In this document: piece by piece, positions 38,558 to 64,000 of the stretch
Position numbering within the stretch: position 1 is the first letter of the stretch
Layout: each line of letters opens with the position of its first letter
From: Burkholderiales bacterium 39-55-53
GTDB taxonomy: Bacteria; Pseudomonadota; Gammaproteobacteria; Burkholderiales; Burkholderiaceae_C
Direction of reading: 5' to 3'
Length of the DNA stretch: 64,000 nt
NCBI GenBank assembly: GCA_002282445.1
Contig: NCJK01000001.1
Coordinates: forward strand, 434,001 to 498,000
Notes under the pieces: generated by a model
The model's input: only the letters and a program-made list of their open reading frames with translations
Told to the model about the DNA's origin: nothing
Databases searched by the model: none
Position numbers and translations under genes: made by a program

Positions 38558-38608
38558 AACTGACGCCCTTGCGCAGTCACGCCATCAATGAAGCGCTTGG
38601 GCACGCGC

Positions 38609-38713
38609 TTCGGCTCATACGCCGCTACGCGGCTCGAAATCGCCTCAGCGCGCACCCAAGCACTCCATTGCAGGCTTTCCACTTCCGAGCCGCGCAGCGG
38701 CGTATGAGCCGAA
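38609..38713. repeat. large inverted repeat after cobA
   Basis: Two 28-base arms (38609-38636 and 38686-38713) are complementary at all but one position and are separated by 49 bases. No gene lies between them. A 34-base part of the left arm and its flank (38611-38644) recurs with about three differences at 51459-51492, so this is a dispersed repeat family, not merely a terminator. No T-run follows. Confidence 0.85.
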
Positions 38714-40951: not shown

Positions 40952-41222
40952 CTGTTGACGGGGCTAGGCCCCACTACCCTAGGCTCCTCTTCGCTTTGCT
41001 CAGAATGTCGCTACGGGTTGCGGGGCCTCGCCCCGTCAACAGCGGTTTTTTCTGCTTAGCGTTTTCACACCAACGGAGTTCAGTCAAAGATGCGGCTTTG
41101 AGCGCAGCGATAAAGCCGTACGTAGAGCGCCCGTAGCGAATGCGGTGTGGCGTGACTGCCCGTAGCGACATTCTGAGCGCAGCGAAGAGGAGCCTAGGGC
41201 AGTTACGCCACACCGCATTCGC
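40952..41222. repeat. nested inverted repeats filling the yqeY-pmbA gap
   Basis: The 374-bp gap holds no gene but three overlapping inverted repeats. First, 28-base arms at 40952-40979 and 41015-41042 pair with about four mismatches, followed by a T-run (terminator-like for yqeY). Second, about 44 bases at 40974-41017 recur inverted at about 41161-41204, nearly identical. Third, 26-base arms at 41136-41161 and 41197-41222 pair with one mismatch. The shared pieces can pair in alternative ways. No coding potential or transposase was seen. The stretch between yqeY and pmbA converges on both genes. Confidence 0.8.
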
Positions 41223-47058: not shown

Positions 47059-49773
47059 ATGCGTGATTTATCTGGGCACACCCCCATGATGCAGCAGTAC
47101 TTGGGGCTCAAAGCTGACCACCCCGAGACGCTGTTGTTCTACCGCATGGGCGACTTTTATGAGTTGTTCTTTGCGGACGCTGAGAAGGTCACGCGCCTGC
47201 TCGACATCACGCTCACGCAACGCGGCCAGTCCAACGGCGAGCCCGTGGTGATGGCAGGTGTGCCGTTTCACTCGCTCGAAACTTATCTATCGCGCCTGAT
47301 CAAACTCGGCGAATCCGTGGCGATTTGCGAGCAAGTGGGCGATGTGGGCGCGAGCAAAGGCCCCGTCGAGCGCAAAGTGGTGCGCGTGGTCACGCCGGGC
47401 ACGCTGACCGACAGCGCCTTGCTCAGCGACAAAACCGAAGCCTACGTATTGGCCATTCACCAAAGCGACCGCGCAGGTTGCGGCTTGGCATGGCTCAGCG
47501 TCACCCAAGGCTTGGTGCATTTGGCCGAGTGCGACACGTCCGAGCTGCCCAACTGGATTGCCCGCGTGGCCCCCAGCGAAATCATTTACAGCGCCGAAGT
47601 CAGCCCTGCGTTTGAGCAACAGCTGAAAAACTTTTGCAGAAACCTTGGCCTGCCCACCCAAGTGCGCCCTGCGTTTCAATTTGATGCCGCTTTGGGTGGC
47701 CGCAAACTGTTGGAGCATTTGCAAGCCGCTTCACTCAACGCGTGGAACGCACAAGACGTGTTGCAATCCCACGCCGCCGCCGCCGCACTGCTGGCCTACG
47801 CGGAACACACCCAAGGCCGCGCCCTCACACACGTGCACGGCGTGTACGTGGCGCGCAACGATGCGCTGATCGACCTGCCTCTCACCACCCGTCGCAACCT
47901 AGAGCTGACCCAAACCCTGCGCGGCGAAGACTCGCCCACCTTGTTCTCGTTGCTCGACACCTGCATGACGGGCATGGGCAGCCGCCAGCTCAAAAACTGG
48001 CTGCTCTCACCCGAGCGCGACCGCACCCAAGCCTTGCACCGCTTGGCCGCTATTGAAGCCCTGCAAGACAACCGCACGCAAAGCTACAAAGTGCTGCGCG
48101 ACGCCCTCAAAGGCTCGGGCGACGTGCAGCGCATCAGTGCCCGCGTGTCGCTACGCCAAGTGCGTCCGCGCGAGTTGGTGTCGCTGGGCCAAGCGCTACA
48201 AAAAGCGCTACGCATTCAGCCGCTCATTCCTATCGCCTCAGAAGCGAGGGCGGTGGAGCGCTCTGCGAAGGTCAAGGAGGAGCTCGCGCAGCGAGCGGGG
48301 GACACGCAGCAGAGCGCTCTGCCGCCCTCGCTTCTGTCGCCCACGTTGCTGGTGCAGATCGCCCAACATATGTGCGTGCCGCCCGAATGCGGTGCATTGC
48401 TGGAACGCGCTTTGCTACCCGAACCCGCCGTCTTGGTGCGCGATGGTGGCGTCATTGGCCACGGCTACGACGCCGACTTGGACGAACTACGCGCCATCCA
48501 AAACAACTGCGACGGCTTCTTGCTCGAACTCGAAGCCCGCGAACGCGAGCGCACTGGCATTGCCAACCTGCGCGTTCAGTTCAACAAAGTGCATGGCTTT
48601 TACATCGAGGTCACGCAAGGCCAGATCGACAAAGTGCCGGCCGACTACACGCGCCGCCAAACTTTGAAAAACGCAGAGCGCTTCATCACACCCGAGCTCA
48701 AAGCCTTTGAGGACAAAGCCCTCAGCGCGCAAGAGCGTGCCCTAGCCCGAGAGAAGTTTTTGTTCGAGCAACTGCTCGACACCTTGCAGCAGTTTGTGCC
48801 CGCCATCACCCGCTTAGCGCAAGCTGTGGCCACACTCGATGCGCTGTGCGCCTTGGCTGAACGCTCGCTCACGCTGGGCTGGTGCGCACCTGAGTTTGTG
48901 AAAACACCGTGCATCGAAATCGAGCAAGGCCGCCACCCCGTGGTGGAAGCCCGCTTGGCCGAAACGCATGGCGTGGTGGCTGGCGGCGCTGCCAAAACCT
49001 TCATTGCCAACGACACGCGGTTGGGCCATCTGCACCGCATGCAAGTCATCACCGGCCCTAACATGGGCGGTAAATCAACTTATATGCGCCAAGTGGCCAT
49101 CATCGTGTTGCTCGCCAGCATTGGCAGCCATGTGCCCGCCACCGCTTGCCGCTTAGGCCCGATTGACGCCATCCACACCCGCATTGGTGCGGCTGATGAC
49201 TTGGCCAACGCGCAATCGACCTTCATGCTGGAGATGACCGAGGCCGCGCAAATCTTACACGCTGCCACGCCGCACAGCTTGGTGTTGATGGACGAAATTG
49301 GCCGCGGCACATCCACTTTTGACGGCCTAGCCTTGGCCAGCGGCATCGCCACGCACTTGCATGACAAGACCCAAGCCTTCACGCTGTTTGCCACGCATTA
49401 CTTTGAACTCACCGAGTTCCCTGCCAACCACCGCGCTGCGGTGAACGTGCATGTGAGCGCGGCCGAGAGTGGCGCGAGCATTGTGTTCTTGCACGAAATT
49501 CAACCTGGCCCCGCCAGCCGCAGCTACGGTATTCAAGTGGCTCGCTTAGCTGGCATGCCTTCTGCTGTACTCAGCCATGCCCGCCATGCCTTGGCCTCGC
49601 TTGAAGCGGGAGCTGATGCATCGAAGGTTCAAGTCGACCTCTTTGCGCCACCGCCGTTGCAAGACGATGTGGGCCCCAGCCCTCTGCAAGCCAAGCTGGC
49701 CGAGATCGACCCCGACAAACTCAGTCCACGCGATGCGTTGGACGCCCTGTATCAACTGAAGAAACTTTTATGA
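47059..49773 (+). CDS. mutS: DNA mismatch repair protein MutS (with an in-frame palindromic insertion)
   Basis: MutS binds mismatches and small loops and recruits MutL. The 904-residue protein has the mismatch-contacting GDFYELFF motif near the N terminus, the connector and lever domains, the Walker [25 protein letters not shown], Walker [17 protein letters not shown] and ATHYFEL. It is longer than usual because about 33 residues (about 394-426, including [13 protein letters not shown]) are encoded by a 98-bp palindromic repeat inserted in the lever domain. The reading frame is intact and all catalytic motifs remain, so it is probably functional. Its TGA overlaps the Anbu ATG. Confidence 0.96.
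48239..48336 (+). repeat. palindromic element inserted inside mutS
   Basis: Two 28-base arms (48239-48266 and 48309-48336) pair with two mismatches. Between them lies GTCAAGGAGGAG, a small hairpin (CTCGC-gca-GCGAG) and CGGGGGACAC. The core matches the two repeats at 63166-63428. The insert stays in frame and adds hydrophilic residues to MutS, as palindromic elements do in Rickettsia genes. Confidence 0.85.
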
Positions 49774-61131: not shown

Positions 61132-62475
61132 ATGAACCGCCCTACCGACGACAGCTTTATCCAACGCGAAGCCAACCAGTTCGCACTTTTAAATCAACGT
61201 CGGTTTGGGCCGTTCTTCTGGACGCAGTTTTGCGGTGCAGCGAACGACAACCTGTTCAAGTTCGCCTTCACCGTGATGGTGACCTACCAGCTCAGCGTGA
61301 GCTGGTTGCCCGTCTCATTAGCGGGCTTGGTGATTGGGGCACTGTTTATCCTCCCCTATTTGTTGTTCTCTGCCACCAGTGGGCAGCTGGCTGAAAAGTA
61401 TTCAGACACGACCATCATGCGATGGGTCAAGAACAGTGAGATCGGCATCATGCTATTGGGCGCTGTTGGCTTTGTCACACAACAAGTGCCTGTGCTGCTT
61501 TTATGCACGTTTTTGATGGGCCTGCATTCCACTGTGTTCGGGCCAGCTAAATATTCATACCTGCCACGCGTGTTGGATGAGCACGAGCTCACTGGCGGCA
61601 ACGGCATGACCGAGATGGGGACATTTATTGCCATCTTGCTAGGCAATGTGGTGGGTGGGTTACTGGTCGCCATTCCTGAGATTGGCCCCGCCGCCGTGGC
61701 CGTGGCTTGTGTGGCGGTGGCTCTGTTTGGTCGCTGGATGAGTGGGCGTATTCCTTCGCTGAATGCAATGCGCCCAGACGAAGCTATCAACTGGAACCCC
61801 ATCACCGAAACCATGCGCAACCTGCGCTTGGCACGCGCCAACGCCAAAGTGTTTCAAACCCTGTTGGGCATCAGCTGGATGTGGTTTTTTGGCGCGGTGT
61901 TTTTAAGCCAGTTCCCTAGCTTTTCCAAAGAGGTGCTGCATGGCGATGCGCAGGTGGCATCGCTGTTGTTGGTGCTGTTCTCGGTCGGCATTGGGGCGGG
62001 TTCACTCTTGTGCGAGGCATTGAGCCGTGGCCGAGTGGAGATTGGTTTGAGTCCGTTGGGAGCCATTGGCATGACGCTGTTTGCCGTGGACTTGTATGTA
62101 GCTGCTAGCAATCTGCCAGCGTCTGAGCTCATGAGCATCAGCGCCTTCTTGGCCCAGAGCGCACACTGGCGGATCATGGCTGATTTGCTGTTGCTGAGTC
62201 TGTTCACGGGCATCTATAGCGTGCCCATGTATGCGCTCATTCAAATCGAGAGCAAAGCCCATGAAGTGGCCCGCATCATTGCGGCCAACAACATTATCAA
62301 TGCGATTTTCATGATTACCAGCTCACTCATTGCAGGGGCCATGCTGAGCGCGGGCATGAGCATCCCCGACATCTTCTTGTGGACAGGCTTAGCCAACGCG
62401 GTGGCAACGCTGGCCATCTTCATGGCCGAGCCCAGTTATTTGCAACGATTTGTAGCATGGCTGCGCGGGGTTTGA
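61132..62475 (+). CDS. MFS transporter (LplT-like lysophospholipid transporter family)
   Basis: This 447-residue inner-membrane protein has about 12 hydrophobic segments. The N-terminal QRRFGPFFWTQFCGAANDNL, AEKYSDTTIMRWVKNSEI, STVFGPAKYSYLP and ELTGGNGMTEMGTFIAILLG match the LplT-like family, often fused to or adjacent to an acyltransferase that re-acylates lysophospholipids. No acyltransferase is adjacent here. It starts six bases after bktB and is probably in the same transcript. Substrate assignment is inferred from family only. Confidence 0.82.
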   Translation: MNRPTDDSFIQREANQFALLNQRRFGPFFWTQFCGAANDNLFKFAFTVMVTYQLSVSWLPVSLAGLVIGALFILPYLLFSATSGQLAEKYSDTTIMRWVKNSEIGIMLLGAVGFVTQQVPVLLLCTFLMGLHSTVFGPAKYSYLPRVLDEHELTGGNGMTEMGTFIAILLGNVVGGLLVAIPEIGPAAVAVACVAVALFGRWMSGRIPSLNAMRPDEAINWNPITETMRNLRLARANAKVFQTLLGISWMWFFGAVFLSQFPSFSKEVLHGDAQVASLLLVLFSVGIGAGSLLCEALSRGRVEIGLSPLGAIGMTLFAVDLYVAASNLPASELMSISAFLAQSAHWRIMADLLLLSLFTGIYSVPMYALIQIESKAHEVARIIAANNIINAIFMITSSLIAGAMLSAGMSIPDIFLWTGLANAVATLAIFMAEPSYLQRFVAWLRGV

Positions 62476-62589: not shown

Positions 62590-63111
62590 ATGTCCGACAC
62601 ACTCACCGCCACACTGCCCACCCTCGAAGTCACCCTCGCTTGGACGGACGCTTTGTCACTCGAGCTGGATTTCATGGACGACACGCACCGCGAATTTGTC
62701 GACTTGCTGGCCGCCACCGAACTGGCCGATGACGACACCTTGACCGAGCGCTTTGCTGCCTTGATCGAGCACACCGAAGATCACTTTGGCGGTGAAGACA
62801 AATGGATGAAAGACACCAAGTTTTCATCCAGCAACTGCCACACCATGCAGCACAACGTGGTGCTAGAAGTCATGCGGGAAGGCTTACGCCGTGGTCGTGA
62901 AAAAGGCGACATGGCCGTGATGCGCCAAATGGCACATGAGCTGGGCATTTGGTTTCCACAACACGCGCAAACCATGGACGCCGCTTTGGCGCTTCACTTG
63001 CGCCGTGTGGGCTACGACGCTGCCACTGGCATCGTCTCAGCGCCTGAGGCCTTGCCTGAAGACGAAATTCACGGCAGCGGTAGCGGTGGTGATAGCGGCT
63101 GCACTTCTTAA
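62590..63111 (+). CDS. bacteriohemerythrin-like protein
   Basis: This 173-residue hemerythrin-fold protein keeps the full set of diiron ligands: His33 (DDTHREF), His65 and Glu69 (HTEDHFGGED), His84 and His88 (CHTMQH), His125 and Asp130 (PQHAQTMD). Such proteins bind O2 or NO reversibly. A C-terminal tail of about 25 residues is Gly/Ser-rich and ends with a Cys. It is a single gene, separated by about 115 bp from the transporter, and is followed by the repeat cluster at 63166-63428. Confidence 0.88.
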   Translation: MSDTLTATLPTLEVTLAWTDALSLELDFMDDTHREFVDLLAATELADDDTLTERFAALIEHTEDHFGGEDKWMKDTKFSSSNCHTMQHNVVLEVMREGLRRGREKGDMAVMRQMAHELGIWFPQHAQTMDAALALHLRRVGYDAATGIVSAPEALPEDEIHGSGSGGDSGCTS

Positions 63112-63165
63112 GTAGCGTCTTTTTCTTCTTTGGCGTTAGACGGCTCACGCATCTTGGGCGCCTTG

Positions 63166-63428
63166 TTACGCTCATGTCCCCCGAGAGGCGCTGTGCGCCT
63201 CTCTCCTCCTTGACTTCGCTTCACAAGACACCCAAGCTGCATGAGCCTTTGGGTTTGCACACGAAAGTCTGGCAGCAGCGACTTCTGCAATGAGCAGTGG
63301 ATTCTGTTGCTAGCAAAGCCAAAGGCGAGCAAGCGTCTTCGTGAGCGAAGAGAGGGGTTTGGGTATCTGTTGTAGCGAAGTCAAGGAGGAGATTCAGGCT
63401 CTGCCTGAATCGGGGGACATGAGCGTAA
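63166..63428. repeat. inverted pair of hairpin-containing repeats
   Basis: The 362-bp gap after the hemerythrin gene contains two facing copies of one repeat. Each has two 19-base arms that match perfectly between copies (63166-63184 with 63410-63428, 63202-63220 with 63374-63392). Between the arms of each copy sits a hairpin of different sequence but equal form: GAGGCGC/GCGCCTC in one and TTCAGGC/GCCTGAA in the other, each with a three-base loop. The interior 63221-63373 holds no gene. The repeat core GTCAAGGAGGAG...CGGGGGACA also occurs inside mutS. Confidence 0.9.
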
Positions 63429-63473
63429 ACTGATGCCCAAACCCCTCGCCTCCAGAACAACAACAAAACGAAC

Positions 63474-64000
63474 TCAGGCGTAACGCGTACGAGCCAACGC
63501 AGCACCAGCCGCCAAAGCTTCCAGCTTCTTCATAGCCACCTCACGGCTCATAGGTGCTAAACCGCAGTTGGTACAAGCAATCAAACGGTTCTTGGGCACA
63601 TATTTCAACGCCATACCAATGGTGTCGGCAATTTGCTCTGGCGTTTCAATCACATCGCTGGCCACGTCAATCACGCCCACCATCACGTCTTTGCCTTCTA
63701 GCAACGCCATCATCTCTGGCGGTACATGCGAGTGATAACACTCCAAGCTCACTTGCTGGATGCTGCTCTTGGCCAACGCGGGCAACACTTTTTCGTATTG
63801 ACGCCACTCGTCGCCCAGTGTCTTCTTCCAGTTGTTGTTGGCTTCGATGCCGTAGCCGTAGCAAATGTGAACCGCGGTGGTGCAGGTCAAACCTTGCGCG
63901 GCACGCTCTAGCGCTTTAACGCCCCAATCGGCAGCTTCATCTAGGTAAACGTTGAACGCGGGTTCGTCAAACTGAATGATGTCCACGCCGTCAGCTTGCA
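63474..64000 (-). CDS. core methionine synthase (MetE C-terminal-domain family, MesD-like), 5' end missing
   Basis: The last 175 codons of a gene entering from the right edge. The sequence includes DIIQFDEPAFNVYLDEA, HICYGYG, LECYHSHVPPEM, VMVGVIDVASD and NRLIACTNCGLAPMSREVAM with the zinc-site Cys, typical of the MetE-like catalytic domain. The end matches the short stand-alone synthases (about 340 residues) that work in some Comamonadaceae with a DUF1852 partner, but neither the N terminus nor a partner gene is visible here. The start lies outside the window. Repeat sequence follows its stop. Confidence 0.82.
   Translation of the reverse strand, partial: QADGVDIIQFDEPAFNVYLDEAADWGVKALERAAQGLTCTTAVHICYGYGIEANNNWKKTLGDEWRQYEKVLPALAKSSIQQVSLECYHSHVPPEMMALLEGKDVMVGVIDVASDVIETPEQIADTIGMALKYVPKNRLIACTNCGLAPMSREVAMKKLEALAAGAALARTRYA

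Follow-up and report, generated by a model that had tools for sequence, protein, structure and literature searches.

A dispersed family of nested hairpins with freely varying stems and a conserved purine core in Comamonadaceae and Xanthomonadaceae

Here we describe a repeat whose folded shape is kept while the sequence of its stems is replaced, starting from a 64,000-nt stretch of the Burkholderiales bacterium 39-55-53 genome (assembly GCA_002282445.1, contig NCJK01000001.1, positions 434,001-498,000, forward strand; in the following, the window). Its copies are dispersed and occupy sites that are filled in some species and empty in others, neighbouring copies form pairs of near-fixed geometry, the fold is maintained by compensatory change, and wobble pairs are strand-specific. 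We see an even chance that the repeat is a REPIN-like, non-autonomous miniature mobile element with a fold of its own, the folded single strand of which would be read through its shape and its purine core. The main rival is a structured RNA acting at transcript ends.

Results

Three copies of a nested hairpin in the window

The three motif copies are present where the original prediction placed them, at 48276-48304 (+), 63175-63209 (-) and 63385-63419 (+), as compared to 0 in 100 dinucleotide-preserving shuffles, and a fourth copy is located elsewhere in the 2.56-Mb genome (C1:570485). The prediction described kept flanks, GGAGGAG and CGGGGGACA, around the inner stems AGAGGCGC/GCGCCTCT, ATTCAGGC/GCCTGAAT and CTCGC/GCGAG with three-base loops. 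Stems, loops and flanks are recovered, except that the last G of the first flank and the first C of the second constitute the closing pair of the inner hairpin. The extent of the element was however underestimated, as a second, outer stem of 21-22 bp flanks the conserved core on either side in every copy. The complete element is thus a nested hairpin of about 92-112 nt overall, in which an outer stem of free sequence is followed inwards by a short G.A-rich stem, a purine loop (AAGGAGGA / GGGGGACA) and the inner hairpin.

With the outer stem included, the two copies at 63 kb span roughly 63144-63245 (-) and 63349-63450 (+). In the latter (covariance-model match 63353-63445, 79.4 bits), the outer stem forms an inverted repeat around the short stem GCGAA/TGAGC with tandem G.A, the purine internal loop and the inner hairpin ATTCAGGC-TCT-GCCTGAAT. 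Conserved are the 5' strand of the purine loop, TCAAGGAGGA, together with the closing G of the inner hairpin (63381-63391, +), and the closing C together with the 3' strand, GGGGGACA (63411-63419, +). The copy on the minus strand (match 63149-63241, 77.0 bits) carries the inner hairpin AGAGGCGC-ACA-GCGCCTCT, and the linker in-between the two elements (63246-63348) differs among species in an alignment of the same locus. The pair, originally portrayed as facing copies, is in -/+ orientation with the CGGGGGACA ends pointing outward, and it separates two genes that converge with their 3' ends, a hemerythrin-domain gene (62590-63111, +) and a cobalamin-independent methionine-synthase-like gene (63474-64000, -, continuing past the window end). 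The third element, roughly 48240-48335 (+; match 48244-48330, 77.3 bits), is placed in frame within mutS (47059-49773, +), in the MutS domain III region; the Pfam MutS_III match, residues 276-600 of the product, spans it.

Other structured sequences are also found in the window. A second hairpin class at 38592-38665 (-) and 38686-38709 (+), likewise a -/+ pair, displays a similar scaffold and another core, CGAG-CCGC-GYA-GCGG-CGTATGAGC, with the former copy weakly matched by the model (30.1 bits). A third kind of long hairpin at 41143-41214 (+) has a similar outer scaffold and the core ATTCTGAGCGCAGCGAAGAGG (weak match, 25.6 bits). Rfam 15 reports Bcj11 at 61817-61938 (+), within a long open frame (61132-62475), at 49.3 bits against a threshold of 49, which may be chance. 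No Rfam family reaches threshold over the copies of the element in the window, and at relaxed limits only a miRNA model is reported for 63100-63480 (22.7 bits versus 72).

The stems covary

As originally claimed, the stems show covariation, and the fold of the motif strand appears to be selected. In alignment A1, 88.2% of cells are paired as compared to 52.2% after shuffling (100 of 103 listed copies; L094, L135 and L164 were left out by hand). In the same alignment, 1002 cells are altered on both sides (299.5 when shuffled), and the covariation score amounts to 0.868, compared with 0.202 for shuffled data and 0.11-0.20 with partners slid. Pairs with two-sided change are about as frequent after shuffling (28.4) as in the real alignment (29 of 30), so that discrimination comes from the other A1 measures only. 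In an arm test without any pairing filter, the median score was 65 for the two arms of one copy and 34 when arms were combined across copies; the 95th percentile of the latter distribution was exceeded by 123 of 137 copies, and its maximum by 42 of 137.

The architecture was resolved by placing 118 of 137 de-duplicated copies in one gapless register, with k denoting the position. Since the register sets admit copies with at least 12 of 18 standard (fold) or at least 11 of 18 Watson-Crick (strand test) outer pairs, pairing at k=9-26 is partly selected. Positions k=9-29 are paired in 90-100% of the 118 copies and k=30 in 81%, as compared to 42-75% and 39%, respectively, when the 3' arms are dealt among copies. 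At k=27-30, outside the selection rule, the values are 97, 94, 90 and 81% versus 42, 51, 43 and 39%. All four Watson-Crick types are used at nearly every outer-stem position. Pairing then fades at k=31-33, which marks the edge of the element. In genome G009 the outer stem extends further according to our reading. In the segment joining the outer stem to the core, pairing amounts to 97-99% at k=1 and k=5, and positions k=2, 3, 4, 6 and 8 alternate between Watson-Crick pairs and A.G or G.A; 117 of 118 copies retain a T just 5' of the core. Common subtypes among 172 exact-pattern copies are GCGAA-AT..TTCGC (44), GCGAA-GT..TGAGC (28) and CGCAG-GT..CGGAG (21).

Exchange of stem sequence is visible even at a single site. 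Among sister species sharing the 63-kb locus, the inner stems differ and yet remain paired, copy 1 being AGAGGCGC, AGTCTTGC or AGTGGCGC and copy 2 ATTCAGGC or AGTGGCGC. The fold is maintained by compensatory change.

Four copies, L033, L086 (275-312, +), L126 and L175, harbor a near-identical insert, TGG(A/G)CTTGGGGTTTTGCC, on the 5' strand, in the segment that separates outer stem and core; these and the insert-bearing or altered copies L074, L180 and L164 were left out of the register sets.

Wobble pairs are biased to the motif strand

Among mismatched stem cells of the 118 elements in fixed register, the motif strand shows 208 G.T and 22 A.C combinations. G.T prevails over A.C in 96 of the 118 elements and A.C over G.T in seven, whereas arms of different copies yield 275 G.T and 171 A.C. 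The same direction is seen for the inner stems (24 versus 7) and in a freer alignment of 129 elements (271 versus 80), as well as in core set A3 (117 versus 2), for which the finding model itself rewards G.T. The AAGGAGGA strand is therefore the one whose fold matters. This strand bias fits RNA best, with single-stranded DNA also possible.

The purine core

The exact-motif set cannot reveal variation of the core, which was assessed in set A3, comprising 75 model matches from 19 genomes. The A3 rows are hand-picked and high-scoring, and the model was trained on exact cores, so the following conservation is overstated: eight Gs are kept in 75 of 75 rows (one of them in 74), and A38, C107, A108 and T28 are likewise kept. 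Within TCAAGG, the position of the C varies freely (A 59, G 7, T 6, C 3). Two further positions vary, one within the 5' G run (A 64, G 8, C 3) and one within the 3' G run (G 64, A 10, one gap), in the combinations A.G (61), G.A (8), C-G (3) and A.A (2), with one gap. Their association is pronounced (Fisher p = 4e-9 on A and G), although the rows are related and p thus overstates it. A model-free pattern search with both bases open, counted by hand with rows lacking a hairpin left out, returned G.A 24 times in six genomes among the matches listed (G082 5, G114 2, G076 7, G053 1, G064 5, G009 4), next to C-G 3, A.A 1, A.C 1, A-T 1, G.G 0 and the remainder A.G. A base pair or contact between the two varying positions is indicated by this sequence pattern. 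Other core changes exist in G161 and G150 at the 63-kb locus, in L221 and L223 at mutS and in L416.

The layout of GG-N-GG, hairpin and GG-N-GG would allow a two-tier quadruplex. That the internal loop indeed holds a natural two-tier G-quadruplex or a purine-purine helix, acting as the recognition core of a mobile element, we regard as an unlikely but consequential proposal, as it would define a dispersed element family by a helix-quadruplex-helix fold, of which we know no example. The quadruplex option of ViennaRNA made no difference; the loop limits of this option exclude a long hairpin loop.

Distribution and pair geometry

A covariance-model search uncovered a large repeat family that is not confined to the window copies, with matches in 58 of 120 genomes of the same bacterial family and in one of 40 genomes that represent other families within the order. 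The exact pattern occurs in 31 of the 120, at least two of which (G028, G051) represent chance, having no hairpin, and a fuller scan of G113 gave 48 model matches. The contigs with exact copies among the matches listed are mostly from Comamonadaceae, with some from Xanthomonadaceae (Luteimonas, Thermomonas, Stenotrophomonas). Eight stretches of viral contigs contain the pattern; two of the eight are full-score model matches and one is a weak partial match. Six loci where the model finds nothing were dropped as chance pattern matches (L083, L091, L121, L122, L161 and L176; record titles Actinomycetospora, Verrucomicrobia twice, Clostridia, Alicyclobacillus and a euryarchaeote).

Neighbouring copies less than 500 bp apart are oriented -/+ in 45 of 46 cases (119 loci), and for 36 of these 45 the core-to-core distance is 103-133 bp. 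Two same-direction neighbours were encountered, L167 and, outside the 119-locus count, L009, which is +/+. The usual unit consists of two copies on opposite strands with outward-pointing CGGGGGACA ends and a linker of roughly 40-100 bp. For pairs more than 300 bp apart the geometry is not fixed (three -/+, four +/- and one -/-), and lone copies may be remnants or single insertions. One longer -/+ pair, in G020, encloses a membrane-protein-like reading frame.

Larger repeated units holding the element are also present. Genome G044 has five repeats of a ~350 bp unit with inverted ends ATACnGnCTTGC, and G009 has a ~450 bp unit in many copies that are 77-93% alike. A further palindrome like AACAATTGGGGTCAGACCCCAATTGTT lies beside some copies of the latter (L425, L426, L429, L430). 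Two aligned pairs of G064 have their hairpins in common and not their linkers, which is odd for a recently moved pair, and inverted ends were not seen there.

Filled and empty sites, and copies in genes

Sites that are filled in some species and empty in others, together with the repeated units of G044, agree with the behaviour of a dispersed mobile repeat, a possibility raised in the original prediction. At the 63-kb locus, six of ten aligned genomes hold both copies, one holds a single copy after a deletion and three are empty, with 23-28 bp between the flanks as compared to about 370-380 in the window; the additional sites L202, L206 and L212 were extracted and left out of the alignment. 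In one aligned relative (G130, L193) both inner hairpins are identical and short tandem repeats occupy the linker, which suggests conversion between copies, judging from the sequence. For mutS, the 30 orthologues considered are loci from the best of 55 genomes with matches (61 searched). The whole element is found in seven of these, a remnant in one, an inverted element in one and none in 21, including L227, where a short residue may be a remnant. The reading frame is kept by all 30 lengths. The inverted case, L226 of G130, is still in frame, with the model match on the minus strand. At both sites the relatives are too diverged for a target-site duplication to be read.

Further in-frame copies in sense orientation reside in two Mur-ligase genes, which we take to be mpl, and in one DUF4147/MOFRL gene, and a partly altered copy lies antisense in a CobB/CobQ-like gene. 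More generally, 43 of 106 copies with 600 bp on each side are spanned by an open frame of 60 codons each side, which in GC-rich DNA is not proof of a gene. The frame is identical (VKEE..RAGDT) in four sense cases, mutS, L004, L012 and L145. A fixed encoded peptide was ruled out by L164 and by the mutS copy of L226, both of which are read from the opposite strand. By eye, a copy is seen in an apparent propionyl-CoA carboxylase region of L017, L029, L077, L085, L143 and L159, perhaps an old shared insertion.

Proposed roles of the motif that find no support

While covariation, a large family and dispersed mobile-repeat behaviour stand from the initial interpretation, three of its proposals fall away. 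A Shine-Dalgarno role of AAGGAGG is contradicted by its central A, which some copies replace by G or C together with the corresponding partner across the loop (A opposite G, G opposite C), and by the presence of copies within genes in both orientations. The ATG after the hairpin is present only in the ACA-TGAGC subtype and is absent from ACA-TTCGC and ACA-CGGAG copies. The suggested REP-associated transposase partner was searched for through Y1_Tnp, which gave 35 matches in 26 genomes; neither the motif nor a model match occurs within about 1.5 kb of the 30 loci given. The gene is present in 26 of 26 genomes tested, eight of which have it without any model match. A link to a RAYT was accordingly rejected for the Y1_Tnp genes examined.

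No transposase was recognised by eye near copies in the 40 largest gene clusters (141 loci; L028 and L034, with no hairpin, were dropped from this gene-neighbourhood set). Equally, no autonomous copy was found, and the G044 ends were not seen to bound any unit of 1-3 kb.

Discussion

We propose that the element spreads by the following mechanism. Whenever it is single-stranded, be it as DNA during replication or transfer or as RNA, one of the strands would adopt the nested fold, from the outer stem through the G.A-rich stem and the purine loop to the inner hairpin. The fold would then be recognized through its shape and its purine core, and not through the stem sequence, by a trans-acting factor, for which a transposase reading folded single strands is the most likely candidate. 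With recognition of this kind, the sequence of the stems would be free to drift, and pairing and core would be maintained.

Alternatively, the fold may in reality be kept for an RNA function at the level of the host, since a selected RNA would be expected to show just such a G.T excess. On this view, copies located in 3' untranslated regions would fold in the transcript, with the purine loop binding a protein, a part of the ribosome or a ligand, and the mRNA end would be protected or terminated; in a -/+ pair, the last hairpin reached by each convergent transcript would be the sense one. The wobble bias of the motif strand and the conserved loop are in agreement with such a function, as is the position of the 63-kb pair between convergent genes, to which the pair geometry would also fit. 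However, the inverted mutS copy of L226 implies an mRNA bearing the other strand, the CobB/CobQ-like gene carries its altered copy antisense, copies in coding regions are translated, and Rfam holds no matching family. We judge this explanation possible, yet rather doubtful.

A REP nature of the hairpins, with the Y1 transposase of these genomes as their mover, appears very unlikely to us. The gene is found throughout the genomes tested, and the pairing and the intragenic copies are REP-like (PMC3733652, PMC3116915), but the motif is absent beside the Y1_Tnp loci, genomes with the gene and zero model matches exist, and no GTAG or CGTC tag is found at the hairpin foot of aligned copies. Least probable of all is purely mutational upkeep, whereby template switching or arm conversion keeps the palindromes perfect and covariation needs no function: the now identical hairpins of G130 point to conversion between copies, yet copying between arms is strand-blind while the wobble is strand-biased, which argues against it, and the purine loop is non-palindromic and nevertheless kept, its central positions covarying from A.G to G.A.

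Should the mobile-element reading be right, these hairpins represent a repeat family, common to Comamonadaceae and Xanthomonadaceae, whose upkeep depends on three-dimensional shape and a non-standard purine core, not on stem sequence, and for which Rfam is without a model. The natural variants would then form a covariation data set for solving a nucleic-acid fold and for finding its protein reader. The mutS copy also leads one to ask whether mismatch repair is affected by such inserts.

Among known systems, integron attC sites are sequence-variable and structure-conserved, and are read by an enzyme as a folded single strand; the element described here differs through conserved bases in its middle. 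Spinach-type RNA aptamers have a purine-rich internal loop with clustered Gs between two helices, whereas the present element is natural and repeated and its quadruplex is a putative one. As regards transposons with terminal inverted repeats (MITEs), inverted ends bound the G044 unit (ATACnGnCTTGC) and were not seen in the two aligned G064 pairs, and no autonomous copy was found. Rickettsia palindromic elements are palindromic inserts read in frame within genes. Compared by description, the in-frame inserts in mutS, the Mur-ligase, DUF4147/MOFRL and CobB/CobQ-like genes resemble these elements, which are named in PMC3733652, while the present family shows both intragenic orientations and has Comamonadaceae and Xanthomonadaceae as hosts.

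REPs, REPINs and BIMEs are short dispersed palindromes, often in inverted pairs with short spacers and some in genes including repair genes (PMC3733652, PMC3116915). REPs and REPINs carry a GTAG or CGTC tag and adjoin a RAYT. The over-representation of inverted short-spacer pairs (45 of 46 neighbours -/+) is shared. In contrast, the bases beside the inner hairpin in the aligned copies are GG(A/G/C)GGA and GG(G/A)GGACA with rare exceptions and without GTAG or CGTC, none of the 30 Y1_Tnp loci pairs a RAYT with a cognate repeat, a second outer stem is nested around the core, the stems are free in sequence between copies, and the purine internal loop holds a covarying non-standard pair. The element is not filed as a REP because the tag is absent from the aligned copies and the RAYT link from the 30 loci.

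None of the papers listed by literature searches could be tied to the motif by sequence, but one of them describes a possible relative, the beta-proteobacterial repeat element BRE (Hot et al. 2011, PMC3110155). BRE measures ~90 bp, occurs in many copies, some within coding sequence, and is hosted by Bordetella and by Comamonadaceae such as Polaromonas, Rhodoferax and Delftia, and it is described, unlike the present element, as often tandem and sequence-conserved. BRE is similar in size and hosts, and its name may thus be an earlier one for the family described here.
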